In this document: in pieces, positions 2,248-35,232 of the stretch
Layout: each line of letters starts with the position of its first letter
Numbering within the stretch: the stretch's first letter is position 1
From: Burkholderiaceae bacterium
Lineage (GTDB): Bacteria; Pseudomonadota; Gammaproteobacteria; Burkholderiales; Burkholderiaceae_E
Length of the DNA stretch: 39,176 bases
Assembly (NCBI GenBank): GCA_023384005.1
Contig: JAHDXY010000012.1
Location: forward strand, 1 to 39,176
Direction: 5' to 3'
The notes under the pieces: generated by a model
The model's input: the letters and a program-made list of their open reading frames with translations, nothing else
Databases searched by the model: none
What the model was told of the DNA's origin: nothing
Translations under genes and position numbers: made by a program

Positions 2248-2281
2248 ATCCTACTGAGCCGGGTGTCTCACCAGATGAGCC
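2248..2281 (-). promoter_or_regulatory. Operator/promoter A before TIR-APAZ
   Basis: Minus strand reads GGCTCA-TCTGG-TGAGACA (2264-2281), a CTCA/TGAG dyad with 5-nt spacer. Ten bases further downstream comes TAGGAT (2248-2253), a -10-like hexamer, which puts a start of transcription near 2241, about 26 nt before the ATG. No -35 hexamer is recognisable where expected; the dyad occupies that space. The same arrangement recurs before RmuC, ARPP-1 and DUF2779. Function is inferred. Confidence 0.6.
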
Positions 2282-2820: not shown

Positions 2821-2835
2821 GGCGGGCGGCTCGCA

Positions 2836-3612: not shown

Positions 3613-3621
3613 GTGCGGTAG

Positions 3622-5085: not shown

Positions 5086-5100
5086 CGCCCCCTCCGCTGC

Positions 5101-8100: not shown

Positions 8101-8220
8101 GCTCGGCTGATCTGGAAATCGCACCAGCCATAGGGTAAGCAAACCCGTCTGCCGCGATTTGACGAGTACGCCGCTCCGGCTCGGATCAAGCCTTAGCCTT
8201 ACCTGATCACCGGGTTGCAT
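5101..8220 (-). CDS. RapA-like SNF2 (SF2) helicase
   Basis: 1039 aa. Seen: an N-terminal beta-rich region with a proline/tryptophan 'SWVPEDQLE' element typical of SNF2 helicases of this type, then Walker A ADEVGLGKT (about 121-129), DEAH (245-248), motif III LLSATPVHLRSDD, motif V EVGSEGIDLQFC and motif VI RVEQRIGRLDRLGQ. The RLYDRLKIFERALGG element after motif VI and the coiled, charged C-terminus resemble RapA/HepA-type SNF2 ATPases. Known: these translocate on double-stranded DNA. Context: 21 bp downstream of the Rad50-like ATPase gene and 15 bp upstream of the Hsp70-like gene. It is the second SNF2 protein of the same operon and differs clearly from the DrmD-like one. Start ATG at 8220 has a weak ribosome binding site, consistent with coupling. 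Confidence 0.88.
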   Translation of the reverse strand: MQPGDQVRLRLDPSRSGVLVKSRQTGLLTLWLVRFPDQPSWVPEDQLEPEADSSSDPIELLSKGELAGAAALRRLLTHVRLSGRLANVVYSMETTNTEFYAHQFKPVLKFLNSPANGLLIADEVGLGKTIEAGLIWTELRSRYDAQRLLVLCPAVLQGKWKAELYDRFGVEAEAADARRTLEVLQAGATEGRARGFALIGSLQGLRPRRGWAESEEEATHAGTRLATFLRSQAEAEPLLDLLIIDEAHYLRNPESMNAALGRLVKAVSEHVLLLSATPVHLRSDDLYYQLNLLDEDTFNDPSVFDEVLEANAPLVQARDLVLAPSPNKAALLDLLKEASAHYLLNDSRQLRALIEELEAQDLLLDRRARADAAHRLETLNLLGHVVSRTRKREVAEWVVQREAFPEAVPMTPAEESFYWKVTEIVREYAAKVDGVEAFLVCMPQRQISSSMPAALRHWKAMADSPRFDDEELFEDLGYEPEEDERPGPLVSEIVRRVGRIADLDELEQNDSKFARFSSIIKRFLTEHESEKMVVFSYFRATLDYLAERLTALGVDAIVLSGSVGLDKAAVLDRFKDPAGPRVLLSSEVGSEGIDLQFCRVMVNYDLPWNPMRVEQRIGRLDRLGQEAKKISIWNLFYRGTIDDRIYLRLYDRLKIFERALGGLEEILGKEIQKLTLGLLAGRLTPAQEEEEIERAAQVLETVKHQEEQLEANAANLVAYGDYILNEVKAARELKRLITGQDIEAYVVDYLQERYAGSRFSLVDTNTRTYDVELSPGAKAELGVFVERNRLQRFTALHRPASGPQRCRFENKVATPGARRVELLGQLHPLVRFVSVELRARTERGERPFWPVVGVRMSAAAIEGVGKGQYGFIVLHWSVEALQAREHLHYAAVSLNGGLVLADDHAERLVVAAITNGQEWLEAKSGIGVKLEAAAEAAVGLYAAGNDRYSGFVKRATDENTDRVNVQIAALERHLENQLKKLEDIRGRLLGAGRRSLARATEGRIAKLRERVDIRRARIESGRNVKARQDLICVGIIEVH

Positions 8221-8241
8221 GGCGAACTCGATCAGTAGCCA

Positions 8242-15028: not shown

Positions 15029-15031
15029 GGG

Positions 15032-20800: not shown

Positions 20801-23100
20801 GCGCGCACTTCGATTGACGACTCCTTGAGCAACGGCGGTGCTGCCTTCCACAGGTCGGCATCGCGAGCCGCCGAATCAACGTCCAGGTAGTCGACTTCGA
20901 GAAGGCTGAGCTGCTCGAGGTTCGGGTTGTTGAACCGCCATCCCCTCCGCAAGTCGTAGAACAACCGGTACGCCAGCATGTCGCGCATCGTGTCCTGAAC
21001 TTGGCGGCGGCCGGCGCCTCGGATATCGGGGTCCTGCATGAACTCGGCGCGCACTCCCCGGTCGTCACGCCCGAAGCCAATTGCGTCGAAAACAGCCGAT
21101 GCCACGTCTTTCTCCGCCAGCGCCTTGCCGGGAGCGCGCTCGACCGCGAGGAGCAATCCGGCCCGCAGCAGCAGAACGTTCAGGAAATCGTTGAAGTGCC
21201 CTGCCTGGAGCGCCGCGTCCTGACGGTTGTCGGTGAAACCGAGGATCTTCTTCGCCTTTTCCGGAAGCTGGACATCCTTTCCGTGCAGGAAGCGCAACGA
21301 GGCGAGCGTCAGCATCGTGGTGGCGGAGCTCCGCCCCTCTCCACTCAACGCTGTCAGACGCAAGGCATCCTTTCCGGATGCCGTGTAGCTCTCTCCGCAC
21401 TGCAAGCAAAACCTGAAACTGCCGGGGATATACCAGCCGGCAAGCGCCCCGCTTTCGCTCACCTTGCCCTCGGTATCCACCCGCACCCGCTTCGGCACGA
21501 ATGGTTGCATCGAGGTCTTGAGCTTCGGCTCTTTACCGCTGTAATCGAACCATGTCTCCGGAAACCGTTCCAGCGCCTCATTCCAGATACTGCCGTCCAC
21601 GTCCGGCATGAAGAAGCCATTCTCGACAGCTTCCTCCCCGGCAAACCGATCATCGATGTCGCGCACCGTAAGACGCGGCTGACTGCCTTCCAGCTTGCGC
21701 CATATGGGCAGGTACTCCTGCCCGCATTCACGGCAGAAATGCGCGTGGTAGAGCGGACGCGTCCGAGCCCCGGGGACGAATTGCTGGCCGTCGAGCGTGA
21801 GATACCGGGCGCCGGGTGCATCGAGCGAGCTGTACACGCGCCCCGCGCCCGAGATGAACTGATGCAATCTGAACGCGAATACGCCACGTTCGTAACCAAG
21901 CATCAGCAGCTTGGTAAGAAATACGCCGCAAAGCGTCCGATCGGCGCCCGAATCCTCACCCAGCCGCTTGCTCGCTTCCTGAATCGTGATCGGACGAGCG
22001 CGCACCCACTTGTTGTCGGGTTCGCTCCACTTCAATCCCAGTACCAATTCCACCCACACGGCCGCCGGATGCGCCTTCAGGGAGGAACTATCGATGTCGT
22101 CGCTCAAGCCGGAGCCAATGACACCAGCCAACTGCGGCTTGACCGCATCCACGTTCAGCCCGTCCGGAGTCACGCGCTGAAGAGTTTCGGTAATAACGCT
22201 GGCCGGCTTCACCTTCACCCCGAAAATCCGCGTCGCTACCTCGGATACGACCTCGTTCAACTTTCGCTTGCCGTCGTCAGATCCCATCGTGGCGGACGTA
22301 CCAACGCAGACAATTTCCTCGGCAAGTGCCTCGCGCACGCGGCGCACCAGCATCGCCACGTCGGCACCTTGCCGGCCGCGGTAGGTATGCAGCTCATCGA
22401 GCACGAGGAATCGCATGCCTTTCGCGTTCGCAATTACCGCACGATCGCTCTCGTTCTGCCGCGTCATCAGCAGCTCGAGCATCATGAAGTTCGTAAGCAG
22501 GATGTCGGGCGGATTCGAAGCGAGGCGCGCTCGCTCGGTTTCGTCTTCCTGGCCGGTGTACCGCCCGAAGGTGAACGGCGCGGCCTCCGGCGTGTACCCA
22601 GCGAGGAACTTACGCAGCTCCTCCACCTGGCTGTTCGCCAGCGCATTCATCGGGTAGATCACGATGGCGCGGGTGCGAGGCTTCGGGTCCCTCTCCTTCT
22701 CTCGCAGTATGTAGTCGACGATCGGTATGAAGTAGCTGAGCGACTTGCCCGACCCGGTCCCTGTTGTCAGGACATAGCTTTCGCCGCCCTTCGCAAAACC
22801 GATCGCCTCTTGCTGGTGGCGATGCAGCCGAATTGAATTGCCGCCACCGGCTGCCGTCTTTCCCTGGCGGAAGATGCGCGCGCACTCCGCGTGCAAAGCA
22901 CCTTGCGCGACAAGCTCTTCGACCGTATTGCCAGGCTGGAAGCTCGGGTTGATCTGGATGAGCGGCGCCGGCCAGTAGCGCCCGGACCTGTACTGCTCCG
23001 CTACGAACGCGCCTATGTCGCCCGCGAGAATGCGTGTGAAGCTACGCGCAAAGTCAGCGTAGTCCGCGATCAATCGGTCTCGGAATTGGAATACGTTCAT
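17872..23100 (-). CDS. Giant DEAD/DEAH helicase with DUF1998-type C-terminus
   Basis: 1742 aa from ATG 23100 (the track's 23139 start is a TTG; AGGGA precedes the ATG at good spacing). Seen: Q-motif RHQ near 96, Walker A GTGSGKS (114-120), DELH (235-238), GTSATMG, FTDNRQDAALQ, motif V/VI CSPTMELGVDIS and QRSGRAGRAGQ, a CPECGYGH...CVAC zinc cluster, then LLYEASEGGAGAL and EAGCYRCLLSYYNQ, hallmarks of the DUF1998/MrfA-type C-terminus. The last 80 residues look like a Vsr/PD-(D/E)XK fold (ADFYYDDW...GFVVVRF) whose usual DG-x-x-H element reads LGTPKP, so probably inactive. Known: in DISARM the helicase (DrmA) and DUF1998 (DrmB) parts are separate; in Druantia DruE they are fused, as here. First gene of the eight-gene run. 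Confidence 0.88.
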   Translation of the reverse strand: MNVFQFRDRLIADYADFARSFTRILAGDIGAFVAEQYRSGRYWPAPLIQINPSFQPGNTVEELVAQGALHAECARIFRQGKTAAGGGNSIRLHRHQQEAIGFAKGGESYVLTTGTGSGKSLSYFIPIVDYILREKERDPKPRTRAIVIYPMNALANSQVEELRKFLAGYTPEAAPFTFGRYTGQEDETERARLASNPPDILLTNFMMLELLMTRQNESDRAVIANAKGMRFLVLDELHTYRGRQGADVAMLVRRVREALAEEIVCVGTSATMGSDDGKRKLNEVVSEVATRIFGVKVKPASVITETLQRVTPDGLNVDAVKPQLAGVIGSGLSDDIDSSSLKAHPAAVWVELVLGLKWSEPDNKWVRARPITIQEASKRLGEDSGADRTLCGVFLTKLLMLGYERGVFAFRLHQFISGAGRVYSSLDAPGARYLTLDGQQFVPGARTRPLYHAHFCRECGQEYLPIWRKLEGSQPRLTVRDIDDRFAGEEAVENGFFMPDVDGSIWNEALERFPETWFDYSGKEPKLKTSMQPFVPKRVRVDTEGKVSESGALAGWYIPGSFRFCLQCGESYTASGKDALRLTALSGEGRSSATTMLTLASLRFLHGKDVQLPEKAKKILGFTDNRQDAALQAGHFNDFLNVLLLRAGLLLAVERAPGKALAEKDVASAVFDAIGFGRDDRGVRAEFMQDPDIRGAGRRQVQDTMRDMLAYRLFYDLRRGWRFNNPNLEQLSLLEVDYLDVDSAARDADLWKAAPPLLKESSIEVRAKVLRTVLDEMRQGLCIKTQYLDRYKLEQLRSQSYNSLREPWGFAEDGENPEPARIYITRRLPSNARGREATALVPGGSRSRLGGKIRRESLWGKGNPNFGRIDEASHQLIVEAVLAAAKAYGIVSAEETDFGLMGYQVNGAALVWREKAVDEKEQQRAQVNRFFRALYLNVAEMLGSEVHQLFDFEAREHTAQVEVEDRLEREARFRFEDSDKANVPNLERLPVLFCSPTMELGVDISALNTVYLRNVPPTPANYAQRSGRAGRAGQPALVITYCASQSPHDQYFFHDPARMAYGQVNPPTLDLANRDLLESHVQAIWLAATGAKLGDSVKSMIDLAQKNFPIFPPLATAMDRGEARAETKRRSGRVLDMLKDELDGRNAPWFVPGWLEGVADNAFKSLDRALERWRQLYRATSLQMELNHKIANNHATPERERKEAMQRYNEAFRQRELLLDEGRRLNSDFYTYRYLASQGFLPGYNFPRLPLMAYVPARRRSGGKESFLSRPRFLALSEFGPYSLIYHEGSRFKVTRAILNIGADDQVTTGAKLATTHARVCPECGYGHFQEQMGADRCVACNTLLAGAPEVRELYRIENVSTRRVDRISANEEERLRQGYETQTTLQFAIKENRLQRALALVTESGEELLELQYGPAATVWRMNLGWRRRKEKSIHGFKIHPVTGHWRGGVDEAGEEDDEKGGDDRTPPQRIVPYVEDRRNVLIVRAAAEIPESTLTALQYALKRGIEAVFQLEESELMAEPLPRSDNRKAILLYEASEGGAGALTRLVSEASALRAVAERALDIAHYRKKAGIAQWSSGAVDQELGEDGKPVCEAGCYRCLLSYYNQPDHERIDRQDPGAVDLLCRLTRAELAIGKAAPAPGPAPLFDGLRAKWIAALRSYGLREPDRADHRLEAAEVTADFYYDDWQAAVMLGTPKPEESLDRRLADAGFVVVRFTDDEQTWNGVFGAHRELFGEMKDAA

Positions 23101-23157
23101 TTTTTCCCTGCAAAGCCGGTCTGATGACCAGTCGGCCAACGCCTTTTTGTCCCCCGC

Positions 23158-23163
23158 AGTGTA
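23158..23163 (-). promoter_or_regulatory. Possible -10 box for the eight-gene operon
   Basis: Minus strand AAAATACACT contains TACACT, a -10-like hexamer about 58 nt before the proposed ATG at 23100. No convincing -35 partner. Weak call; transcription might instead continue from RmuC, whose stop is 153 bp upstream. Confidence 0.25.
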
Positions 23164-23212
23164 TTTTGCCTTGCAGCCGACAACTAGGCGAGGGCCAATG
23201 GTTTTCGGCGCG

Positions 23213-23225
23213 CTTACCCGCTAAG
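23213..23225. repeat. CTTA-N5-TAAG dyad before the giant helicase
   Basis: GCTTA-CCCGC-TAAGC is a perfect 5+5 dyad in the 153-bp gap between RmuC and the giant helicase. It has the same 5-nt spacer as the CTCA-N5-TGAG sites but different half-sites, and no -10 at the shared distance. It may be a degenerate member of that set or unrelated. The rest of this gap shows nothing else. Confidence 0.3.
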
Positions 23226-23253
23226 CGGGCACCGCGTATTCGGTGTACGACCC

Positions 23254-24783
23254 CTAGCCGGGCTGGACCTCAAGCTCAGGCACCTGGAGCGCTCGCGGCA
23301 ACACCTCGACCTGATCGATCTCGCCGATTTCGCGCCCGTCCGGCACCGCCTTCAGTTCTTTGAAGCGCCTCGCCGAGACCAACACCCGACTTTCGAGCGA
23401 AGCGACCGCCTTGTTGTAGGCGCCCACCGCGTCGCCGAGGTTTTTGCCGACCTTGCTCCAGTGGCCGGCCATGACGGAGATCCGCTCGTGCAGGTCGCGG
23501 CCGAGGTCGCTGATCTCCTGCGCGTTGCGGGCGAGCGCTTCCTGTTTCCAGCCGTAGGCGATGGCGCGCAGCATCGCGATGAGTGTCGTCGGCGTTGCCG
23601 GGATGACCTTTTCGCCGACTCCAAACTCGATCAGCTCCGGGTCCTGCTCCAGCGCGGCGGAGAAGAACATCTCGCCGGGGAGGAAGAGGACTACGAGCTC
23701 AGGCGTCGGGTCGAACTGCTCCTGGTAGGACTTGCGGCCGAGCTTCGTCATGTGGTCGCGCACCTGGCGCGCGTGATCGACGAGCTTTTGCGTGCGCAGC
23801 TCGTCTTTCTCGGTCTCCATCGCTTCGAGGTAAGCGGTGAGCGGCGTCTTCGCGTCCACTACGATGTTGCGCCCGCCCGGAAGGCGCACGACCATGTCCG
23901 GCCGCAGGAGTCCGTCCTCGCTCAAGACGCTCACCTGCTCGATGAAGTCGCAGTGCTCGAGCATCCCGGCCATCTCGACGACCCGGCGCAGTTGCAGCTC
24001 GCCCCAGCGCCCGCGCGCGACCGGCTGGCGCAGGGCACGCACGAGGTTCGAAGTTTCTTTGCGCAGGTCGCCCTGCCCCTCGGCAAGGGAGCGCACCTGC
24101 GTCGTCAGCGCCTGGTAGGCGCCTTCGCGCATCTTTTCGATCTCGTGGATTTGCCCGTCGAGCTTCTCCAGCGACTGCTTCACCGGCCCGACCAGCTCCT
24201 GGATGGCCTGCTGGCGCTTTTCGAGGTCGCCCTGCGCGCCTTGCTGGAACTTGCCGAGGGTTTCCGCCGCGAGGTCCAGAAACGACTGGTTGTTCGCCTG
24301 CAGCGCCTGTGCCGACAACGCGCGAAACGCGCTCGCGAGCTGCTCCTGCGCCTGGTTGAGAACGCCGAGCTTCTCGGCCAGCATCGCCCGCTCCGCCTCC
24401 AGCTCGGCCTTTAGACGGGCGTTCTCGACCTTCAGCTCCGCATTGGCGTCGTCCTTGGCCTCGGCGGCGCGCGCGGCGTCGCTGAGCGCGGCCTCGAGCT
24501 GCGGTACGCGCAGAGCCAGTTGCTCGGCTGCTGCCCGTTTCTGCGTCTCGGCGCGAAGCGCCGCCTCCACCGGTTCGCGCGCCGCTTCAAGTTCCGAGAC
24601 TCTCTTCTCCAACCTCGCAACTTCGGCGTCGCGCCCAGAAAGCCGTTCGATCAGCGCTGCCCGCTCCGATTCCATCCCAGCCCGGCCGCGCTCGAACGCG
24701 CTATTCGCCTGCTGGCGCAGGAGAAACCACGCCCCAACACTACCGAGCAGCAGTCCTGCGGCGATTGCGAGAAGGCTTTCCAC
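23254..24783 (-). CDS. rmuC: DNA recombination protein RmuC
   Basis: 509 aa. Seen: an N-terminal membrane anchor ([19 protein letters not shown]), a long alanine/glutamate-rich coiled coil (about 30-190), then the RmuC core with [37 protein letters not shown] and [12 protein letters not shown]. The VDAKTP element is the PD-(D/E)XK-like nuclease core. Known: RmuC limits inversions at short inverted repeats in E. coli and is membrane-anchored. Here it sits inside a defence island rather than beside its usual chromosomal neighbours and carries its own copy of the shared operator motif, so it is probably part of the island's response. GTG start at 24783 with GAGG eight bases upstream. Confidence 0.9.
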
Positions 24784-24827: not shown

Positions 24828-24860
24828 ACTATAAGGGCCGGGTGTCTCAGAGGATGAGCC
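24828..24860 (-). promoter_or_regulatory. Operator/promoter B before rmuC
   Basis: Minus strand GGCTCA-TCCTC-TGAGACA (24843-24860), identical to site A in both half-sites and in the following ACACCCGGC. Nine bases downstream is TATAGT (24828-24833), the best -10 of the set, giving a predicted start near 24821 and a leader of about 38 nt. No -35 hexamer visible. Confidence 0.65.
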
Positions 24861-24875: not shown

Positions 24876-25154
24876 TCAGTCGCGGGGGATGCGGCGGTAG
24901 CGATGGCCGACGGTAATCACGGCCCCGTCCGACCCGAGGATCGCGTAGGTCCGGCGAAGCCGCTCCGCCTCCCGTGCTGCAGCCGGGCTCTGCCTCGCCA
25001 GCCGCGCCCGGGCGGCCCTGTCCAAGAAGACAATCTCGCGGCCACGATCGACGTGAGCCGTCCTGCCGAAGTCGAGCAGCGCCTCGAGCGCCTCTGCCCG
25101 GATGCCCCGCTGCTGCATCCGGCTGCGCGCGTGCGGCGTGAGGTTGGCGGACAT
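24876..25154 (-). CDS. DUF4258-like small protein
   Basis: 92 aa from ATG 25154 (GCGAGG precedes it); the track start at 25178 is a TTG without a ribosome binding site and would overlap the ARPP-1 stop. Seen: LTPHARSRMQQRGI at the N-terminus and TVGHRYRRIPRD at the end, the pattern of DUF4258-like proteins (H-x-x-x-R-M-x-x-R). Known: this family is distantly related to RelE/BrnT-like folds, but its function is not established. Context: begins 10 bp after the ARPP-1 stop, so the two are co-transcribed; no antitoxin-like partner is seen. It is therefore not called a toxin. Confidence 0.6.
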   Translation of the reverse strand: MSANLTPHARSRMQQRGIRAEALEALLDFGRTAHVDRGREIVFLDRAARARLARQSPAAAREAERLRRTYAILGSDGAVITVGHRYRRIPRD

Positions 25155-25164
25155 CACGGCCTCG

Positions 25165-26094
25165 CTACGCCATCGCAAAACCCGCTAGATGAACGATGCG
25201 GCCGTTGGCGACGAGCGCGCCGCCCGACACCTCGTCTCCCGTCAACCGGATGTCCTCGCCTTCGCCGAGCGCCGGGAAGCGTTCGGCCGCTGCGGCCTGC
25301 ATCGCTTCGAGAAAGCGGTGCACTTCCGCGGCCGACGGTGCGAGCGTCTTTCCAGCCTCCGTCTCGATCGCGTCAAGGGCGTAGCTGCGCACGAGCTTGT
25401 CGAGATAGCGGGCGAATGCAGCCGCAGAATCGAAGAGTTCCATTCCGATCGGCTTGCCATCGACAGCAATGACCGCGCCGCGCTGGCCAGGCTCGGAGCG
25501 GAAGGCAGTGGCATATCCGCTCAGCCGCGGCGCGCTTTCCTCATATACGTCCGCCATGGCGAGCGTGCCGGACTCCACGCGGCAGAACGCCGCCTTGTCG
25601 GCGACGTCCGCCCATACCTGCGACTGATTGGACCGCCGGTCCCGGTTGACGCGCAGGGACTCCGTGACCTGTCGCACCTTCTTCGCGCGCGCCTTCGCGA
25701 ACAGGGATCTTCGCGCCGACCGGAACTCGCGGCTGTGATACGACCAGCGCCCCTGCTCGACGCAGGAAACAGGAATGACCAGCTTCTGCCGGCTGCCCAC
25801 CAGGACGCTGAGATTGAGCACCCGGTTTTGCTTCGCGCCGACCAGCTCGTCGCCATCGACCAGAAGGATTCTCTCCGCCGAGTCGTTCTCGAAGGACAGC
25901 TCCGGCACCCGTCCGTCGGCAGACACTTCGGTCACACGGGCGAGATTCCGCTCCAGGGCATCGTCGAGGAGCAGGTAGTCGGACAGCACCTTCCGTTCGT
26001 CGATAAGCGGGAAAAGCGCGAGGTTGAGGTGAACCTGCGGCGAACCGAGCTTGAGCCCGGTGAATGATTGCTCGATTTCCTGCGCGGTTTGCAT
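25165..26094 (-). CDS. ARPP-1 domain protein
   Basis: 309 aa. Seen: an N-terminal ARPP-1-like pattern, LNLALFPLID near residue 25, then ERILLVDGDELVGAKQNRVLN and IPVSCVEQGRWSY, and a second half with SGYATAFRSEPGQRGAVIAVDG. The family is named for its association with ADP-ribosylglycohydrolase and rhodanese-phosphatase-like proteins; its biochemical activity is unknown. Start ATG at 26094 has a clear ribosome binding site (GAAGG, 6 nt). Context: preceded by operator D and a GATACT box, followed by the DUF4258-like gene. An involvement in ADP-ribose or NAD signalling, and so a link with the NAD-consuming SPARTA module in the same island, is speculation from the family name and the shared operator. 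Confidence 0.75.
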   Translation of the reverse strand: MQTAQEIEQSFTGLKLGSPQVHLNLALFPLIDERKVLSDYLLLDDALERNLARVTEVSADGRVPELSFENDSAERILLVDGDELVGAKQNRVLNLSVLVGSRQKLVIPVSCVEQGRWSYHSREFRSARRSLFAKARAKKVRQVTESLRVNRDRRSNQSQVWADVADKAAFCRVESGTLAMADVYEESAPRLSGYATAFRSEPGQRGAVIAVDGKPIGMELFDSAAAFARYLDKLVRSYALDAIETEAGKTLAPSAAEVHRFLEAMQAAAAERFPALGEGEDIRLTGDEVSGGALVANGRIVHLAGFAMA

Positions 26095-26125: not shown

Positions 26126-26159
26126 AGTATCGGAGCGCTGGTGGCTCAAGGCGTGAGCC
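26126..26159 (-). promoter_or_regulatory. Operator/promoter D before the ARPP-1 gene
   Basis: Minus strand GGCTCA-CGCCT-TGAGCCA (26142-26159); here the dyad extends to six bases each side (GGCTCA/TGAGCC). Ten bases on is GATACT (26126-26131), a good -10. Predicted start near 26119, 25 nt before the ATG. No -35. Confidence 0.6.
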
Positions 26160-26223
26160 CCCGAAGGAAATCTCGCGCTATGAAACGCCTAATCCGGCCG
26201 CGCTCACCGCATGAACCGTGCTG

Positions 26224-29200
26224 TCACTTCACAGTCGGTGGCTCTAAATTCACATAAAACTCGCGGGACAGCTTCGCCAGCTCGGCGGGCGCCACGGTTC
26301 GCTTGAGATGTTCGAGCAGATCCTCCTGCCGCGGCTGGCCGAAGACCATCCGGTAGACGGCAAGGGACCCGCGCAGCGCAGGCAGCCTCGCCGCCTCCCG
26401 GCTGAGCGGCAACGCAGGCGCATGACGCTCGATGTACGCGCCATCCTCGATCGGGAAGACCCAGTAGGGGACGATTTCGGAGCTGTGCCCGGCATGCTTT
26501 TCCGCATACTCGAACAGTCCGCCCCACGGGTTGACGCCCGGTTTCGCCGCATGTCCGTTCTTGCGGACCAGGCTTGCGACATTTTTCCTGACAGCATGCC
26601 CCTTGTAGCGGTGAACCCTGCCTTCGCGCTGCTCCAGATCGACAGGATTGCTCGGCAGGTTCCAGTGGACAACCGCATGGCAGTAGGGATGGAAGTCGAG
26701 CCCTTCCTGCCCTATGGACGTGGTGACGCAAACGAACGGCCAGAATGGCGAGTTGAAGGCGGCACGCACGCCTTCTTTGCGGAGCAGCGTTTCTTCGCGC
26801 TCCCCGCCGCGCTCATCTCCGTAGCGCATCGCAAATCGCGCTCGCGCCCGCTGATTGTCGATAGTTACGCGTCCATCGCTGGAAGCCCTGACCCAATCGA
26901 CGCCAGGTGTCGCGGCTCGCAGCCCAGCAGAAGAGGCGATCTTGTCCGCGAGCTGCCGCGCGGCTTCTATGGGCGGCGCGTCGGTCAGACCTTCTGACTC
27001 GACCAGAACGTGAACATACTCGTCGAGCACACTCTGCAAGCAGCCGGCCGCGCAATACTCAAGCGCTCGCCTCCAGTACGGTTCCGCGCCGTTCATTCCC
27101 CGAATCAGGGCAATTACCTCGGGAGTGTTGAACAGGCTCCGAAACCCCCATGCAGTCCTGCCAGCCGAATGCCTTAGAGCGGGATCAGTGTGCGCCGCTC
27201 CCAACGTATGCCCCAGCGCGCGAAGGGCGCAATTCGCCGGTCCTGCGATTGCGATGAGCGCTAGAAGCTCGGGCAAATCCTCGGGCACGCGACCCTCCGG
27301 TTTCGCCTTCCCGAGCGCAAATTCGGCCGCGTAGCCGACGTGTTCCAGCCAGCCTTTTCTCTCTTCCGGATCTGAGGACCACGCATCGGCCAGCGACGCA
27401 GGATTTGCAAACCATCCCTCCGTCGCTTCCCGATCGTTATGGCGATCGAGCATGATCGGCGCGGCCCAATACCACGCCTCGTCTTCTGGCCCGGTACGTC
27501 GTGCGCCGGCCGTCAGGGGCGATAGCAGCTTCCGAATTCCGCCGGCAACCTTCTTGATGACTGCTTCGAGGGTCTCAGTCGCCACTGTCGGTACGGCTCC
27601 GAGCGGATCGCCCAGGCCAGCGAGCCTCGTACTCGGATACAGCAGTGAAAGGACCGGCATGCCCGTAAGACGGCCTTCCGACCGCGTGAACATGAGGAGC
27701 GGTCGCCGCCGTTCCCGAGCTTCGAGCGTATTGGTGGCCGCGGCATCAAGGCTTTTCATCATGCGCCGCTCCACTTCGTAACTGAGCAGCACGGAGACAG
27801 CGCGCGGAACCACGTTCCAACTCGAAAAGATGAGCCGCTTCGTCATTACCTTTGCGGCCACGCCGCTGAAAGGCTGGCCGAGCCGGTAGTACGGGAATGA
27901 AGGCGGCATCCACAGCAGCCGCCACCATCCTTCTCCAATTGTCTGTTCGGCCAGCCGCTCCAGCGCTGCATGGCGCGGGTCAATCTCCTCGTAAGCGCGC
28001 CAGGCCGAGGCGTCGAGCAGCGCGCTCCGGGACGCAGCGATGGCGCGCGAAACAGCTTCGCCACCGCCGTTCTGCGCGACATCCCGAAGCAGGCCCTTAA
28101 GCTGGTAGTTGTCCGGCTCCATGAAGTTCAAGAGATATGGGCTGGCCTTCCAGTACTCGGTCACGTCGGTATGGCCAAGCGCGTCCGCCAGCCGGCGTGT
28201 AGCGAGGTAGCTCTCGATATGCTTGGGAAGCACTTGAACCGCGGGCGTCGCGACCTCGCGAAGCATCCCGCTTCGATCGGCCGTGACCGCCAGCTTCTCC
28301 GTCCGGCACATCACTCGTCGCAGCTCGGCTTCGAGCTTCTGCTTTATCTCGCGAACCGGTTCTACGCCGTCCTGACCTACCCGTGCGCAAGCCCTGCCAT
28401 ATGCAGCCAGAAGCTCCTTGCTCGCTTCGGTCTCCTTCTCATCGACTTGCAAGAATCGCAACGTCTCCACGAAATCCTTGTAGTGGTCGTCGGACTCCGC
28501 TTCCTGACCAAGTGTGTACATCTTGTACGGCGTCGCCGAGAGAAGCAGGACCCGCGCGTCCTCCCAGGCGAACAGGTGCCGCGCCAGGTCACCTGCCGGA
28601 TTGTCCGGACGAAGAAGATCTTTGAAGCGCTGGAACTCGTCCAGGATGATGAGATCGGGTTCGAGAGCGCGTACGCACACGGCGGCAAGCAGCGACCGCA
28701 TGTCGCCAATGAAGGCGTTGCGGGCCTCCCTGTCCTCGGCGGGAATGTGCTTTTTGCTCCACGCGAACCTGGCGCACAGATCACGGAAATTGCTCTCGTG
28801 AGTTGGTTTGCCGGCCTCCCGTGCACGCGCGCCCTCCTGGCGGAGCTGCTCGCTGAACGCCTTCGCCAGATCGCGGTCGATCGGCGCGTCTCGCTCGCAC
28901 TGCCGAAGCCAGTCGCGGAACTTATCCTTATCCGTAACGCCGCCCTGCATCAGGTTCTTGGCCCCCGTACCCTGCGCAATCGACGGCCACGTCCACCGCA
29001 GCAGCCAGTACAAAAGGAGCCGCTCGTCCACCAGCCCGCCACGGTTCCCCAGATGGAACGACGTTTGCGGCGTGAATGAGACGAAGTTGAGACGATTCGC
29101 CGAGAGCTCCTGGACCTGCTGGGGCAACAAAGTAATGCGAGAGGCGAACTGAAAGTCTGGTTTGCCCGTTACATTAAGGCGGCTGATGTTCTGCCGGGCG

Positions 29201-29451
29201 ATGTCGGCGTTCGAGCAGATGTATATCACGTCGATGCGCTTCTTCCCGGCTTTGCGCAGCCGTTCTATCGCCCTGGCGATAACGCCGCGTGCTACGAGCG
29301 TCTTGCCCAGTCCGACTTCGTCGGCCAGCAGGAATCGGCGCGTCGCGCCTTTGCCGTACAGGCGCTCGTAGACGTATGCCACCGACTTGCGTTGAAATCC
29401 TTTGAGCGCACCGAGAACGCGCTCGGCGTCAACGGCATCAGGCTGCGACAC
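26224..29451 (-). CDS. SF2 (SNF2-like) helicase of the DUF6361-PLD cassette
   Basis: 1075 aa. Seen: Walker A LLADEVGLGKT (41-51), a Walker B read as DEFQ (271-274) rather than DEAH, motif III LLLSATPYKMYTL, and late in the protein TTSIGQEGLDFHPYC and LEQREGRVHRYKG, motifs V and VI. Between motif III and V lies an insertion of some 550 residues, much larger than in typical SNF2 helicases. Known: helicases of this shape accompany PLD-like proteins in defence clusters. GTG start at 29451 overlaps the PLD gene stop by 14 nt, with GCAGGGCGGAC just upstream. It is the fourth SF2 helicase of the island and the only one with DEFQ. Substrate unknown. Confidence 0.85.
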   Translation of the reverse strand: MSQPDAVDAERVLGALKGFQRKSVAYVYERLYGKGATRRFLLADEVGLGKTLVARGVIARAIERLRKAGKKRIDVIYICSNADIARQNISRLNVTGKPDFQFASRITLLPQQVQELSANRLNFVSFTPQTSFHLGNRGGLVDERLLLYWLLRWTWPSIAQGTGAKNLMQGGVTDKDKFRDWLRQCERDAPIDRDLAKAFSEQLRQEGARAREAGKPTHESNFRDLCARFAWSKKHIPAEDREARNAFIGDMRSLLAAVCVRALEPDLIILDEFQRFKDLLRPDNPAGDLARHLFAWEDARVLLLSATPYKMYTLGQEAESDDHYKDFVETLRFLQVDEKETEASKELLAAYGRACARVGQDGVEPVREIKQKLEAELRRVMCRTEKLAVTADRSGMLREVATPAVQVLPKHIESYLATRRLADALGHTDVTEYWKASPYLLNFMEPDNYQLKGLLRDVAQNGGGEAVSRAIAASRSALLDASAWRAYEEIDPRHAALERLAEQTIGEGWWRLLWMPPSFPYYRLGQPFSGVAAKVMTKRLIFSSWNVVPRAVSVLLSYEVERRMMKSLDAAATNTLEARERRRPLLMFTRSEGRLTGMPVLSLLYPSTRLAGLGDPLGAVPTVATETLEAVIKKVAGGIRKLLSPLTAGARRTGPEDEAWYWAAPIMLDRHNDREATEGWFANPASLADAWSSDPEERKGWLEHVGYAAEFALGKAKPEGRVPEDLPELLALIAIAGPANCALRALGHTLGAAHTDPALRHSAGRTAWGFRSLFNTPEVIALIRGMNGAEPYWRRALEYCAAGCLQSVLDEYVHVLVESEGLTDAPPIEAARQLADKIASSAGLRAATPGVDWVRASSDGRVTIDNQRARARFAMRYGDERGGEREETLLRKEGVRAAFNSPFWPFVCVTTSIGQEGLDFHPYCHAVVHWNLPSNPVDLEQREGRVHRYKGHAVRKNVASLVRKNGHAAKPGVNPWGGLFEYAEKHAGHSSEIVPYWVFPIEDGAYIERHAPALPLSREAARLPALRGSLAVYRMVFGQPRQEDLLEHLKRTVAPAELAKLSREFYVNLEPPTVK

Positions 29452-31438
29452 GTCCGCCCTGCTTCCGAAGGTTTGCGTCCGCGCCCCGCGCGGCGCGGAT
29501 GGCGCTCCAGAGCATTACAAGCTCTTCTGGAAGAAGTTGCCTGCCCTCCTCCGTCTTTTCGAGGTCTTGCACCAGCCGCTCGATGTGATCGAGGCGCGAA
29601 GGATCTTCGGCCAGCGTCCGAAGCAGCGGTTCGAGGAGCGGTATGCCGAACGAGCCGAGCGAATTCCAGTCGCCCCAGCTTCCTCCTTTTCCCTGTCCGT
29701 CGCCTCGCAGGTCAAGATCAGCGCCCTCCAGCAGCATCAACAGATAGCGCAGAAGCCGTTCGCGATTCGAGAGCATCGCGAGCAGCAGCCGCGCGTCGCG
29801 ATCCGCCGGTGCGCCATCCAACGGCAGCTTGAGCACGAACTCCTGCGTCAATTTTCGGCTTTTCTCGCTGGCAGTAACGGTGACCGCAAAGAAAGCCGTC
29901 AGAGATTCGAACGCGAGCGATTTGAAAGAGGCGAGTTGCCCGCTTATGCGCGTGAATCGCACCCCGTTGTCAGGTGCAAATGACACCGGGCGGATCGCGC
30001 ACTCGACGCCTGCCGGAAGTGGCGCAGCCGCAGCTTCGGCCGATTCGACGCGCACTCTGAACGTCCGTCCTTCGGCATCGGCTTGGCAGTAAGCGATCAG
30101 GCGTGCGTCAACGAGCTGACGGCGGACTTGATCGATTGTCCGTTCCAGCCTCTTCTCGACCTCGTCGGGCTTGCGCTCGATTTCCGCACGCCTGTATGGA
30201 ACGAGCATGTCGATCAGGCGGACCCGCTTGTCCTGCTGGCCCTTCTGAGCATCCTGGCGGAGCAGCGAATCGATCCCAATGTCGGCTCGCTTGCCACGCA
30301 GTTCCACCAGGAATTCGACATTCGCGGAGAACGCCGCTTCCGTGGCGTTGGCTGAGCCGGTCCAGAGTCGCGCGTCCCAGCCACAATCCGCTACGTAGAA
30401 CTTTGCGTGCAGACCACGCAAGGATACCGCGGACGGCTCCACCGTGATCTCACCGTCGGAGTTCTCCGCTGGACCTGAAGCAGTTTGCGACTGAGCTGCC
30501 TCGTCTTCGCGCAAGTCCGACTCCGCCGCATCTGAGAGTACGTAGCATGACTCGATATCCTCGAACGCAGCCGCCGCCAAGAAGTCCAGCTCCTCCGGCC
30601 GCGAAACGAGCGCACATACGTTGCTCTGTTCCTTCACCCAGTCCAGAAACGTCTTGTCTGCGAAGGGTGACATGACGAGCAGTCGATCCGTGCGCCCCTC
30701 GAACGGCCACACGTCTTTCGCATCCACACCGATCGGCCAGAACACGAGGTCGTCGGCGTAGTTGCTGAAGCCCGGTGGAACCTGGAACTGGACTCGCAGC
30801 AGTTCTTCCGAAATCTGCACGATGTCTTTCGCTCGACGCGCGTCTACTGGCCGGCATGCAAGGTCGGGCAGAGCCCGAACGAATGCAGCCAAGGGCCGAT
30901 TGCTGCGGATGACTTGCGGTCGATCGCGTATCAGCTCGCCATCGAGGGCGAGCATGGTGTCCCAGGAGCGGTCGAACGTGAGGTTTCTCGTCCCGCACAA
31001 GAGGCGATACTTCACCGCATTGGGGTCCGGCCGCTCGTGATCCTCCGCCGCCCGCGGATCGCGCAGGTCCGCAGAGTACCGGACGACCGCAACCTTCGGA
31101 TGGAATACGCCTCCATTCCTGCGCGCCTTGGCCTCGATTACCGATTCCTCCAGGTATCCGAAAAGTAATTGCCCTCTTCGTGGCGCCGCGATGCAGCCTC
31201 CTTGGCAGAAGACGCTGATGCGGCCTGCGTGTCTGCGAAGGGCTTCGAGCAGGGCAACAGGGTCCACCCGCCCTGCCTCGTTGATTCCGTCGCCGGACGC
31301 CAACGTGAACGACAGCGGCAGCGTCAACAACGCGACCAGATCGAGGGTGTACGTCGTCGCAATGACTTGATCGAGCCGAAAGCCGGCGGGGGCGCGCAGC
31401 GCCTCGGTAAAAACGGTGCGATCGGCGGCATCGAGCAT
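29438..31438 (-). CDS. Phospholipase-D-like (PLD) family protein, probable nuclease
   Basis: 666 aa. Seen: two PLD half-sites. The first is VFHPKVAVVRY (H113, K115) followed by LCGTRNLTFDRSWD (about 147-160); the second is LHAKFYVADC (H344, K346) followed by WTGSANATEAAF (about 359-370). Both H-x-K motifs and the downstream N residues are intact, so a complete two-site active centre is possible. Known: bacterial PLD-fold proteins in defence loci, for example DrmC in DISARM, act as nucleases or accessory factors. Context: ATG starts one base after the DUF6361 stop (TGA-A-ATG) and its end overlaps the helicase. It is larger than DrmC and lies in another operon than the methylase, so it is not called DrmC. 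Confidence 0.82.
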   Translation of the reverse strand: MLDAADRTVFTEALRAPAGFRLDQVIATTYTLDLVALLTLPLSFTLASGDGINEAGRVDPVALLEALRRHAGRISVFCQGGCIAAPRRGQLLFGYLEESVIEAKARRNGGVFHPKVAVVRYSADLRDPRAAEDHERPDPNAVKYRLLCGTRNLTFDRSWDTMLALDGELIRDRPQVIRSNRPLAAFVRALPDLACRPVDARRAKDIVQISEELLRVQFQVPPGFSNYADDLVFWPIGVDAKDVWPFEGRTDRLLVMSPFADKTFLDWVKEQSNVCALVSRPEELDFLAAAAFEDIESCYVLSDAAESDLREDEAAQSQTASGPAENSDGEITVEPSAVSLRGLHAKFYVADCGWDARLWTGSANATEAAFSANVEFLVELRGKRADIGIDSLLRQDAQKGQQDKRVRLIDMLVPYRRAEIERKPDEVEKRLERTIDQVRRQLVDARLIAYCQADAEGRTFRVRVESAEAAAAPLPAGVECAIRPVSFAPDNGVRFTRISGQLASFKSLAFESLTAFFAVTVTASEKSRKLTQEFVLKLPLDGAPADRDARLLLAMLSNRERLLRYLLMLLEGADLDLRGDGQGKGGSWGDWNSLGSFGIPLLEPLLRTLAEDPSRLDHIERLVQDLEKTEEGRQLLPEELVMLWSAIRAARGADANLRKQGGRVAA

Positions 31439-31439
31439 T

Positions 31440-32645
31440 TCAGGTCGCCTTCGCAGGTTTGCGGATCAGGTCCTCGAGGATCTGTCGCACGGGTCTGCCC
31501 CATCGGTAGTCAAGTTGCCCCGCCCCGGATCGCCCGTTCCACAGGTCGAGCGCCCTCGGATTTCCGAGCCGCGCCCGCCCCCGCTTCAGGAATGACTCAC
31601 GCAATCGGATCAGTTCGTGCAGGCTGCGGTCGGAAAGGATGCTTTCAATCCGGCGCGCTGTGCCGATCGCGCCCTGCCATGTTTCAACGAAGGAATAACT
31701 TGGCGGCGGTACCCTTGCCCGCCATGCGGCGAGCAACGCCCAGAAGCGCGGGCGGTTCCATTTCGCGAATCCGTCCGCCCGTTGCTTCAGCGCCTCCCAC
31801 CATTCGGCGAGCCACTCTTCATATTCCTCGACCAGGTCCTCCAAATCCTTTTCTTGCGCGAGCATCAGGTTATAGAGCAGCGAGGCCCCGTGCATGGACT
31901 CGGAGAAGTTGCGCGCGTGCTCGAGCTCCTCGCTGAGCGCTTTGGGCAATTCCGCGGGTGGCACGTGTTCCCACGGAAAATCCGTGCCATTCGGCCGCCT
32001 CCCTACATGAATCAGGTGAGCAAGCAGCGAATCCGGAGCGGCGAAGTTCATCCGATCGGACAGGTATCTCGCTTCCTCGCTAGTGATCGCGAAGTCGGTG
32101 GCATCCAGCCATCCCTCAGGCGGTTGTGGGAGCTCGGCGTCCCACAGCACCCGGCTCGCGTTTCCGACCGGCTCCCCGTCATCGTTTCGCTGCGCTTCCG
32201 ACGTGGTTCGCAGCTCCCTCGCGTAATCGGCCTCCGAGCCGTCGAACCGCAAAACCCCCAAGCGCCGCAAGCCCTGCCAGTACACGCTGCTCGGCAGGCG
32301 CTGGACGTTTCCGCCAGCCCTGTAGCCAATTACGCCGAGCGCTTCGCCGCCTTTCATGAGGCTTTTACGGAGCTGGTCCTGCATCTGCCGCATCCGCTGT
32401 CCGAAGCGTTCTGGATCGCGATCCGCCGGCTTCAACATGCGGAACAGCCAGGGAACGAAAAGGAAATAGCGTACCCGGGTTTGAATCGTGCTCGTGCCCG
32501 GGAACAGCCGGTCGGCGAACGCATCACGGATCACGCCAAGACCAAGCTCGTCTCGCGTATCGTCTTCGCGGAATAGGTCGACGGCGTCGAGCGCCCGCTT
32601 GCGGTCGCGGTCCGAATAGTCGAGCCAAGCGAAAGTAGACGCCAC
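31440..32645 (-). CDS. DUF6361 family protein
   Basis: 401 aa from the GTG at 32645. Seen: FAWLDYSDRDRKRALDAV at the N-terminus and LGLGVIRDAFADRLFPG followed by TIQTRVRYFLFVPWLF, strongly characteristic of DUF6361. Family members begin close to the F-x-W-L-D-Y element, so the track's GTG at 32717, which adds 24 unrelated residues, is probably too early; GGGG lies about nine bases before the 32645 GTG. No known catalytic motif. Function unknown; it is found with PLD-like and helicase genes. Context: first gene of a three-gene cassette. The 57-128 bp upstream to the DUF2779 stop show no copy of the shared operator motif; a CTTACTACTGAG element with GATAAAGT nearby is at most a loose relative. 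Confidence 0.78.
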   Translation of the reverse strand: MASTFAWLDYSDRDRKRALDAVDLFREDDTRDELGLGVIRDAFADRLFPGTSTIQTRVRYFLFVPWLFRMLKPADRDPERFGQRMRQMQDQLRKSLMKGGEALGVIGYRAGGNVQRLPSSVYWQGLRRLGVLRFDGSEADYARELRTTSEAQRNDDGEPVGNASRVLWDAELPQPPEGWLDATDFAITSEEARYLSDRMNFAAPDSLLAHLIHVGRRPNGTDFPWEHVPPAELPKALSEELEHARNFSESMHGASLLYNLMLAQEKDLEDLVEEYEEWLAEWWEALKQRADGFAKWNRPRFWALLAAWRARVPPPSYSFVETWQGAIGTARRIESILSDRSLHELIRLRESFLKRGRARLGNPRALDLWNGRSGAGQLDYRWGRPVRQILEDLIRKPAKAT

Positions 32646-32773
32646 AGTTGTGTACCCCGGTGGCAGCGGAAACTTCCCCGCGCTAGTCAATGCTGGACCA
32701 TGCGCGGCCCCCTGCACACCGAACTTTATCCCCTCAGTAGTAAGACCACCAATTGCTGTTCATTCTCTGGGCG

Positions 32774-34219
32774 TCAGCACTGCTCCATCAGGAACCGCGC
32801 AAGTCGCACCATTGCGAGCGTATCGCGCGCGCAATACGCCGTGAGATCACGCTCGATGCTTTGCCGGCGCTCCGGGAGCGTATTCGGGTGAATTGCTTCA
32901 AGGTAAGCAACCTGTGCCTGCCCTCCCTCCTGGACTTCCCCGAGGGCAGCGTAGTCCAGCTCGGGCGCAATCGTCGGGATGACGGACTTGATCGACCACG
33001 AACCCATCATCTGCGGGTGGTAGTAGCTGCGTTCCGCCAACGGTCGCAAGTCAACAATGCGGTTCATGATCCTGCCGATGCTCTCCGCAAGATCGGGAAA
33101 ACGCACCACGGACTGCGCAAGAATCGTCCGCTCGAAGCTGCTGTAGGAGAATACTGGCCCGCTCGTTCCGAGACAGCCGATCAGCGATTCCGCGAAAGTG
33201 CGCATCGGCGGCCGGCCGGAAAGGTCCAGGAAGCCGCGTTGCTCGAGCGACCCATCCGACTTCTCCAGGTGGCAGGACCATTGGAAGGGAAGCTGTTCGT
33301 AGGGGCGCGTGCCCGCCCAAATCGGCACCGCCATCTGAGCGGTCTCGAAATCCACGTAGTACCGCGGGTAAGGAAGCGCTGCGACCTCAGCCCCCGCGCC
33401 CCTGACGATGTCCGCCTGCCCGCTGATGGTCGCCCGCCACACTCGCAGGTGATTGGCGGACTTCAGCATTCCCTCCGGCACCTCGCGCAGGTCCCGATGC
33501 CCCGCCTCGCGCAAGGCCACGACCGTCTTCCCGCCTCGCGGCAGAATCTCCACCGGAAACGCCGGTCTGCCAGCCGAGCAATGCCCCTGAAACGGGCACT
33601 CGAACGGATCGGTGCAATGGGCGCCCATTTCGACGGCTGGCATGGCACCGTCGAGCACGCGCGAGAACTGCTCCACCCAGCCCGGCACCTTGCCCACATC
33701 TGGTCCGACGGCCACGGACACATCCGTGTCGCGCAGCAGCCCTCCGTACTGCCCTTCGCCCTGGTACACGAACGCGTTGTCGATGTGCGTGACGAAGGAT
33801 CGAGACAACCGCACGCCCGCGCCGCGCAGCGTCCACACTTGGACCGCCACGTCGGGCTGGTGGTAGTCCTTCACCGAGGTCGACGATTTCACTTCCCGCA
33901 GCTCTGCGTCGCCCGCGCGCCGCGACAAGATGTCCGCGCGAATCAGAACGCCTCCATGAGCGACAGCGGCTTCGAACAACACCTTGTCGCCCGGCATGGC
34001 AAGTTCCCGCTCGGTCGCCGCGAGCGCCGCGTTCAGATCGTCGTCGGCCATGAGCTTCCCGCCGGGCTGCAGCGTGCGGGCAACGTCTCCAACCTCATGC
34101 CCGACCTGGAAGCGATGCTCCGTCGCGGCATCGACTTCGGCGAGATCCGGCCGGTGCACCTGGAGGTACAACCGCTTCGGGCATTGCAACCCGTTCAGAA
34201 TGCGGGACTTGGAGAGCAT
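32774..34219 (-). CDS. DUF2779 protein: Cas4-like nuclease plus DEDD exonuclease-like domain
   Basis: 481 aa. Seen: N-terminal LNGLQCPKRLYLQ with C13, a PD-(D/E)XK core with D96 in RADIL and E109-V-K111, and a later cysteine cluster C202, C208, C214 in HCTDPFECPFQGHC. Four cysteines in this order suggest the Cas4/AddB-type iron-sulphur cluster. The C-terminal half starts YYVDFETAQ (D290, E292) and ends YCARDTLAMV, the first and last acidic motifs of a DnaQ/RNase H-like DEDD exonuclease. Known: this fused family is widespread in mobile elements, its role unclear. Context: follows the WYL gene by 44 bp, and that gap holds operator C. The predicted transcript would start at or next to the ATG, and no ribosome binding site is visible, so a leaderless message is possible. 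Confidence 0.8.
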   Translation of the reverse strand: MLSKSRILNGLQCPKRLYLQVHRPDLAEVDAATEHRFQVGHEVGDVARTLQPGGKLMADDDLNAALAATERELAMPGDKVLFEAAVAHGGVLIRADILSRRAGDAELREVKSSTSVKDYHQPDVAVQVWTLRGAGVRLSRSFVTHIDNAFVYQGEGQYGGLLRDTDVSVAVGPDVGKVPGWVEQFSRVLDGAMPAVEMGAHCTDPFECPFQGHCSAGRPAFPVEILPRGGKTVVALREAGHRDLREVPEGMLKSANHLRVWRATISGQADIVRGAGAEVAALPYPRYYVDFETAQMAVPIWAGTRPYEQLPFQWSCHLEKSDGSLEQRGFLDLSGRPPMRTFAESLIGCLGTSGPVFSYSSFERTILAQSVVRFPDLAESIGRIMNRIVDLRPLAERSYYHPQMMGSWSIKSVIPTIAPELDYAALGEVQEGGQAQVAYLEAIHPNTLPERRQSIERDLTAYCARDTLAMVRLARFLMEQC

Positions 34220-34225
34220 CGATCT

Positions 34226-34259
34226 ATTTTGCGGGGCTCACTGACTCACAGCGTGAGCC
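34226..34259 (-). promoter_or_regulatory. Operator/promoter C before the DUF2779 gene
   Basis: Minus strand GGCTCA-CGCTG-TGAGTCA (34242-34259). A second GTGAG follows directly (TCAGTGAGCC), so the site may be doubled. Ten bases downstream is CAAAAT (34226-34231), a poor -10, placing the start near 34219, the first base of the ATG. Confidence 0.5.
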
Positions 34260-34263
34260 TGCG

Positions 34264-35232
34264 CTAGCTGTAGCGCTCGGCTGCTTGCCTGTGCAGCTCC
34301 CTAACGCGCGCTCGCAACGCGGCCGGCTCGACGACTTCAGCATCCGGTCCGAACTTCAATATCTCCATGACCAGCTCGCGGTCGTCGGAATATGGGATCT
34401 CCAGGATGTAGGTGCCATCCTTCTCGACGCGCGCGCGCTGCTTGGGGTGCCATATCTGCGCGGACACCCACCGTGCCGATTGCGGCGTGAACTTCAGCGT
34501 CGCCCACTGGACGTTGCGGCCTGCGAAGATGCCGTATCCGCTCGCCAGGTGCTCATCGAGCTCGGCCTTCGCTATTTCCTTCGCGCGAGCATCGCGAAGC
34601 ATGGCATCGCGGATCGCGTCCACCGCGAAGCTGCGCAATCCCTCGCGCATATGGCAGTACGCATCCACGTACCAGTTTTCGCGGTAGTGAATAAGTCGTT
34701 GCGGCGATATCTCCCGCTCCGTCTCGCGATCGTCGGCGCGGTTGTAGTGGCGAATCCACACTCGGTTTCGTTTGAGCACGGCTGCGGCAATGACACTGAA
34801 ATGCGCGGTCTTCGACTCCCGCCGCCCCGGCTGAAAGATGCGGATTCGCTTTTCGACTTCCTCCCAGGAATGATCGCCTCGGCCAAGGATCGCGCGCAGC
34901 CGCTCAACCAGCGGTGTCACCTGTCCGTCGAGCAGTCCAGGCTGCAAATTGCCCAGAAGCTGCAGCGTGCTGAGCAACGCATGAATCTCTGCCGCGCTGA
35001 ACCACAAGCCCGGCAGCTCGTAGCGAGGACCCGAGCGCGGCTTCCCGAAGCGATACCCGTTGACATCGCGGTCGTAGTCGATCGGCGCGTGCAGCCGGTC
35101 GCGCATGTAGTCGAGATCGCGTCTGAGCGTCGCGCGCGATACGCCTATCGCCTCCCTAAGCGCCGCGAACGACACGACCTTGCGCTCCTTCAAGAGCTGG
35201 TCGATTTTGTAAAACCGCTCCGTCCTGTCCAC
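34264..35232 (-). CDS. WYL-domain transcriptional regulator
   Basis: 322 aa. Seen: an N-terminal winged helix-turn-helix (DQLLKERKVVSFAALREAIGVSRATLRRDL is the region; the recognition helix is VSRATLRRDLDYMR, about 31-44), YELPGLWFSAAEIHALL about 71-87, the WYL core around ENWYVDAYCH and RSFAVDAI, and a C-terminal WCX-like part ending ADAVVEPAALR-like. Known: proteins of this build, such as BrxR and CapW, regulate defence islands and are thought to sense a ligand through the WYL domain. GTG start at 35232 with AAGGGGGG a few bases upstream. Context: first gene of the island, directly before operator C. It is the natural candidate to bind the four CTCA-N5-TGAG sites, though no such site is seen before its own gene. 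Confidence 0.85.
   Translation of the reverse strand: MDRTERFYKIDQLLKERKVVSFAALREAIGVSRATLRRDLDYMRDRLHAPIDYDRDVNGYRFGKPRSGPRYELPGLWFSAAEIHALLSTLQLLGNLQPGLLDGQVTPLVERLRAILGRGDHSWEEVEKRIRIFQPGRRESKTAHFSVIAAAVLKRNRVWIRHYNRADDRETEREISPQRLIHYRENWYVDAYCHMREGLRSFAVDAIRDAMLRDARAKEIAKAELDEHLASGYGIFAGRNVQWATLKFTPQSARWVSAQIWHPKQRARVEKDGTYILEIPYSDDRELVMEILKFGPDAEVVEPAALRARVRELHRQAAERYS

Follow-up and report, generated by a model that had tools for sequence, protein, structure and literature searches.

A WYL-domain protein as the likely PafBC/DriD-like activator of a four-unit defence island fronted by GGCTCA-N5-TGAGCC promoter cassettes

The window, i.e., the whole stretch of DNA analysed here, covers 39,176 nucleotides of a Burkholderiaceae bacterium contig, and its features are listed in Table 1. 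The WYL gene encodes a 322-AA product from a GTG start codon and is the 5′-most gene of a co-directional minus-strand array. The N-terminus of the product is VDRTERFYKIDQ, for which alignment with relatives gave MDRTERFYKIDQ as the counterpart. The Pfam models HTH_11 (28.5 bits), WYL (69 bits) and WCX (71.3 bits) were all matched above their cut-offs, and the protein is a transcription factor of the wHTH-WYL-WCX type. No other regulator domain was found among the remaining window ORFs scanned, in agreement with an earlier note on this DNA, which had called the gene the first and only regulator in 35 kb. The ORF itself is real.

Table 1. Coordinates of the units, operators, promoter elements and WYL gene in the window, with the parts of the WYL protein in residues.
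Feature	Position	Strand	Remarks
Unit A	1..2215	-	TIR-PNTD (Aga) and prokaryotic Argonaute; truncated by window edge
-10 hexamer TAGGAT	2248..2253	-	offset 12 from operator A
Operator A	2265..2281	-	GGCTCATCTGGTGAGAC
Unit B	2308..24783	-	first part RmuC, YprA/DruE-like helicase, DpdE-like helicase, DrmMI-like methylase, LmuB-like ATPase; rest DrmD, unknown, HNH, GIY-YIG
-10 hexamer TATAGT	24828..24833	-	offset 11 from operator B
Operator B	24844..24860	-	GGCTCATCCTCTGAGAC
Unit C	24876..26094	-	ARPP-1 gene and small DUF4258-like gene; Pfam
-10 hexamer GATACT	26126..26131	-	offset 12 from operator C
Operator C	26143..26159	-	GGCTCACGCCTTGAGCC, 12/12
Weak second site	26201..26217	-	GGTTCATGCGGTGAGCG, 10/12; function doubtful
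Unit D	26224..34219	-	DUF2779 (Cas4-like match), DUF6361 (PADLOC ZacA), PLD-like, DEAD helicase
-10 hexamer CAAAAT	34226..34231	-	offset 12 from operator D
Operator D	34243..34259	-	GGCTCACGCTGTGAGTC; serves DUF2779/DUF6361/PLD/helicase operon
WYL regulator gene	34264..35232	-	ORF, Pfam, AF2 model
WYL protein parts	res. 1-62; 80-129; ~140-210; 242-318		wHTH; linker and three-helix bundle; WYL; WCX

The AF2 model of the WYL protein has a mean pLDDT of 77.9 and a pTM of only 0.45. In the model, HTH helices (residues 3-16, 22-29 and 33-45) are followed by a wing, by a three-helix bundle, as in DriD, and by the WYL and WCX domains. Foldseek ranked DriD first for this model and PafBC next, with CapW and BrxR after them. 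In the family profile search PafBC was matched at 6e-23 across residues 6-322 and DriD at 9e-11; the matches to BrxR (2e-8) and CapW (2e-6) covered shorter stretches around the WYL domain. A phmmer search of PDB chains with the single sequence returned no BrxR chain at E <= 1e-3, in a set-up that differs from the published BLASTP one, where BrxR family membership is given by similarity to BrxR at E < 1e-5 (PMC9122601). The closest matches by sequence and fold are activators, and the window protein has the three-helix bundle between its HTH and WYL domains.

Residues R173, W187, Y188, R196 and R200 are nearly invariant. The Arg pair that PafBC and SiwR require to bind ssDNA (R201/R204 in PafC) aligns with A203/A206 of the window protein, and most family members have Ala or Ser at these positions, with the nearby R173, R196 and R200 kept. 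Because the Arg pair is replaced by A203/A206, the ligand may differ from ssDNA, and for the same reason we filed the protein as one that works like PafBC, DriD and SiwR but stands outside the ssDNA-sensing group.

Exact copies of the pattern GGCTCANNNNNTGAG are located at 2267-2281, 24846-24860, 26143-26159 and 34245-34259, once before each of the four units, and the same operator-promoter cassette is common to all of them. The WYL gene adjoins one of these sites, as stated before: operator D lies 8 bp past its stop codon and upstream of the DUF2779 gene. Across the 4.8-Mb genome the relaxed 17-mer GGYTCAN5TGARNC gave 21 matches (both strands counted) vs. 1 for the reversed pattern. A scan of the window with two mismatches allowed was not enriched, the counts being below chance and uninformative, which leaves exact matches and their context as the basis of the case. 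The weak second site has no recognisable -10 where one would be expected. In the 600 bp before the WYL gene, no match to the palindrome reaches 9/12, and 8/12 matches are not in excess (2 found vs. 2.5 expected); autorepression of the window WYL gene via such an upstream site was therefore rejected. The earlier claim that the gene lacks the motif upstream of itself thus stands, and the WYL protein does not appear to control its own gene; the clade closest to it likewise has downstream sites only.

A fixed arrangement was seen downstream of the palindromes. A sigma70-type -10 hexamer begins 11-12 nt past the 17-bp site in 69 of the 92 unique sites (either orientation), vs. 9.3 +/- 2.9 (max 18) for offset 11/12 in a shuffled-flank control and a mean of 7.9 (max 17) for other offset pairs in the same sites; the -10 elements are weak, and the scoring matrix was generic. 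Of the 79 oriented promoters, no more than 3 carry a -35 that matches at 4/6 or better with 16-18 nt spacing, and 11 carry a TGn extension. The operator occupies the -35 position, from about -40 to -24 if the hexamer is set at -12 to -7; the -10 is kept and a genuine -35 is almost always missing. A site that takes the place of the -35 in constant register with the -10 usually marks an activator. Overlap of the palindrome with the target -10, as in CapW, was not observed, the -10 sitting 11-12 nt beyond the site. These counts support the cassette geometry well as a feature of the sequences, and by analogy with PafBC, SiwR and DriD it is probably of the activator type.

Most of the sites located before a WYL gene belong to the divergent neighbour, and their geometry is unchanged. 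We considered whether such sites in relatives could be autorepressor sites, given -10-like hexamers 17-18 nt before the site; this was rejected, as the hexamers are mostly the -10 elements of the divergent operons, at offset 11-12 on the opposite strand. The activator geometry therefore also explains the upstream sites of relatives, where autorepression is a possible addition. In the genome studied, a WYL paralogue shares its operator with a divergent FAD-dependent monooxygenase-like gene (L102:9448-11969), so that the WYL family is not confined to defence; at the site of paralogue C357, the divergent gene of this kind opposite the paralogue has a weaker hexamer, TAGCCT, at 12.

Pairing of the WYL family with the palindrome was followed across genomes, with 80 relatives (50-74% identity) from a scan of GTDB species genomes and loci read around ~100 relatives (41-74% identity). 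A matching palindrome lies beside the WYL gene in 62 of the 101 labelled relatives (33 downstream, 21 upstream, 8 both). These [AG]GCTCAN5TGAGC[CT]-like sites are found 5-60 bp past the WYL stop, <=200 bp before the start or slightly further, and the reversed motif yielded about ten weak matches in total over the ~100 loci. The window and its closest relatives (L018, L019) share exactly the same site position, +8 from the end of the WYL gene. The expected pairing of the WYL protein with GGCTCA-N5-TGAG sites is thus strongly supported. About 30 Rhodocyclales/Sulfuritalea relatives mostly have no site near the WYL gene. A recognition-helix change accounting for this site-poor clade was sought and not found, the helix being nearly the same. 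Identical AGCTCACTGGATGAGCC sites do occur in the Sulfuritalea-type clade at L065:18504 and L076:14812; they have TAGATT at offset 11 and stand before a conserved pair of small genes, several kb from the WYL gene.

The genome of the window encodes two further WYL paralogues, C357 (49% identity) and C304 (41%), with recognition helices like that of the window protein and same-class sites beside both genes (27 bp before the WYL start for C357). Of 274 genomes of the class that were surveyed without selection, 72 had WYL homologues, and strict sites fell within about 1.4 kb of them in a dozen places. Sites located independently of WYL were found beside homologues in G087, G247 (twice), G061, G119, G265 and G021, and further ones in G120, G223, G055, G267 and G083. 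WYL-positive genomes had 0.83 sites per genome vs. 0.20 for WYL-negative ones, and the reversed control gave 0.19 vs. 0.08; at least one strict copy was present in 38 WYL-negative genomes. Genome-level co-occurrence alone is weak, because the two groups differ in the reversed control as well; the argument is carried by the phasing of the -10 and by how far the sites lie from the WYL gene. Taken at the level of sequence, the family-operator pairing is well supported. A literature search for the GGCTCA palindrome motif returned nothing relevant.

Motif copies in elements without this WYL gene had been named in the earlier note as an outcome that would speak against its proposal. In a sample of 399 genomes of the phylum, four bear ARPP-1; the two of these without the WYL gene have no strict motif at all, and the third non-window genome has both the WYL gene and the motif, with the motif not adjacent to ARPP-1 in the stretch read. 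Among 20 sampled sites of WYL-negative genomes, 15 lack the promoter geometry, many lying inside genes, and 5 have a -10 and look promoter-like. For distal sites in WYL-positive genomes the count was 9/20, with a background of about 10%.

The genes behind the operator in other genomes overlap with those of the window. ARPP-1 directly follows the WYL gene and operator in L018 and L019 and is found by an operator also in L026, L110, L111 and L128; DUF4258 and RmuC follow it in L024, L040 and L022, and type I-F Cas1/Cas3 in L045. Tallies of targets further include ADP-ribosylglycohydrolase, Exonuc_V_gamma/RecC, Csy1, Csd1/Cas5, Cas3, AAA_27 with metallophosphoesterase (SbcCD-like) and RNase_H_2/AAA helicases. 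In G112 the gene behind the operator encodes a C5 cytosine methylase. The operator also precedes repair genes: in G025, which has a WYL homologue of the same family, it is followed by TAAAAT at 12 and the start of recA (once; L190:2030-3126), and in G147 it stands with TACACT at 12 directly before recC (L198:1512-4862). In the window these modules stand in a different order, each under its own copy of the cassette, which fits a modular assembly of the regulon.

Comparison with known WYL regulators places the window protein closest to activators. PafBC, from the mycobacterial DNA damage response (PMC6789036), activates with its motif near -26 in place of a -35 (PMC11804915). This actinobacterial regulator shares the wHTH-WYL-WCX order and, among solved structures, matches best in sequence, with the match spanning the whole protein; it is, however, a heterodimer or fusion, whereas the window gene probably encodes a single homodimer-type protein with a 17-bp palindrome, lacks the WYL-pocket Arg pair and has mainly defence operons as its type of target. 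In DriD of Caulobacter crescentus, the top fold match, the domain boundaries nearly coincide with those of the window protein, also for the three-helix bundle. The DriD bundle contacts RNA polymerase, and DriD activates promoters with poor -35/-10 elements (PMC12340889). It differs in its site (ATACGAC-N7-GTCGTAT), in keeping the ssDNA-contacting WYL residues and in having a small DNA damage regulon. SiwR of Mycobacterium smegmatis is a homodimeric activator whose palindrome lies between -35 and -10, between the WYL gene and the target operon (PMC10693628), and SiwR and PafBC use a -26 element much as the sites described here would be used (PMC10693628, PMC11804915). The probable homodimer, the position of the palindrome directly between WYL gene and target operon, and the probable activation are the points of likeness, whereas SiwR has DinB-like targets and a R204/R207 pair that is present and essential.

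BrxR and CapW resemble the window protein in standing beside defence systems and binding palindromes, but they are repressors and weaker matches in sequence and fold; BrxR is autoregulated, an inverted repeat upstream of the regulator's own gene being a mark of its family, and the CapW site overlaps the -10. RptR is likewise a single regulator of a phage defence island but is described as a repressor (PMC12255303).

From the family-operator pairing, the promoter geometry and the profile and fold matches, the window protein most likely acts on the whole island as an activator of the PafBC/DriD-like kind. The WYL gene product would be a homodimer-type wHTH-3HB-WYL-WCX transcription activator that binds GGCTCA-N5-TGAGCC through the recognition helix RATLRRDLDYMRD. 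The bound palindrome would replace the missing -35 and leave the -10 hexamer 11-12 nt downstream. The WYL domain may receive a signal, probably tied to DNA damage or infection, upon which the protein would keep RNA polymerase at the otherwise poor promoters, jointly switching on TIR-pAgo, RmuC with the YprA/DISARM-like cluster, ARPP-1 and DUF2779/DUF6361/PLD/helicase. We consider this mechanism as a whole likely; activation, dimer binding, the signal and the window protein, not the other two paralogues, as the actor are inferred. Counting against it are the two paralogues with same-type sites, A203/A206, the site-poor clade of ~30 relatives, the 5/20 sites with a -10 in WYL-negative genomes, the weak -10 elements and the low pTM.

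The same observations bear on other explanations. A repressor of the BrxR/CapW type, blocking RNA polymerase at the operators until a ligand releases it during infection, would agree with the known defence-associated WYL regulators, which repress (PMC9122601, PMC9122588), and with the wHTH-WYL-WCX fold common to both; the site 27-57 bp before the WYL start in some relatives could also shut off the WYL gene. We regard such a repressor as unlikely, since the fixed 11-12 nt spacing and the near-absence of a -35 leave little intrinsic promoter to repress, CapW represses from sites overlapping the -10 (PMC9122588), which window-type sites do not, and BrxR and CapW match less well. The filing of the protein with these repressors in the earlier note is thus probably wrong. 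Control of the four operators in trans by one of the paralogues, the window protein being minor or redundant, draws on their similar recognition helices and their flanking sites of the same class; it is unlikely in view of the operator at +8 right after the window gene, as in its closest relatives, and of ARPP-1, RmuC and DUF4258 following the operator in its own clade. The proposed role as master regulator of the island needs qualifying, because two paralogous WYL proteins of the same genome carry same-class sites. The pairing of the window protein with the motif holds, and its control of all four units is probable.

Two readings would remove the WYL protein from the picture. The palindrome could be the LexA (SOS) box of the lineage or the site of another global regulator, as its presence at recA and recC in some genomes might suggest. 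Yet upstream of lexA in this genome stands a canonical CTGTATAAAAATACAG box, and a GGCTCA palindrome was not found there, which rules out the LexA box, and the sites track WYL genes; this explanation is highly unlikely. That the palindromes arose by chance or from repeats would suit the loose two-mismatch scan and the strict copies in 38 WYL-negative genomes, but is very improbable given the near-empty reversed control, the conserved positions and the -10 phasing.

If the PafBC/DriD-like activator holds, the window protein appears to differ from the defence-associated WYL regulators in the literature searched, all repressors. With one operator-promoter cassette in front of systems of several kinds, a new module could enter the response by gaining this short stretch. 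The cassette also offers a rule, open to testing, by which co-regulated and unknown defence operons may be sought across many genomes, and it ties such operons to recombination and repair genes. A further possibility, somewhat less likely than not, is an SOS-independent WYL activator regulon of beta/gamma-proteobacteria on GGCTCA-N5-TGAGCC promoters, which would join recombination and repair genes with anti-phage genes (recA, recC and SbcCD-like with CRISPR-Cas, pAgo, DISARM/Druantia-like, RmuC and ARPP-1) and respond through a WYL pocket unlike the ssDNA-binding one.

Several further observations concern the gene content. Unit B, with its YprA/DruE-like and DpdE/BrxHII-like helicases, PglX/DrmMI-like methylase, LmuB-like ATPase and DrmD, resembles the gene content of ARMADA type I (PMC12458937), with RmuC leading the unit and the HNH and GIY-YIG genes ending it. 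The DEAD helicase of unit D is divergent, and in L110, too, homologues of DUF6361, the PLD-like protein and the helicase are grouped (11399-14999), with an ARPP-1 operon that carries the same operator upstream of them. A DUF932 gene (38518-39129) beyond the WYL end of the island is possibly a mobile-element boundary marker. Elsewhere in the same genome, a perfect operator (L099:9943-9959) stands between a MerR-type gene and a metallophosphoesterase and AAA_27 (SbcCD-like) pair.
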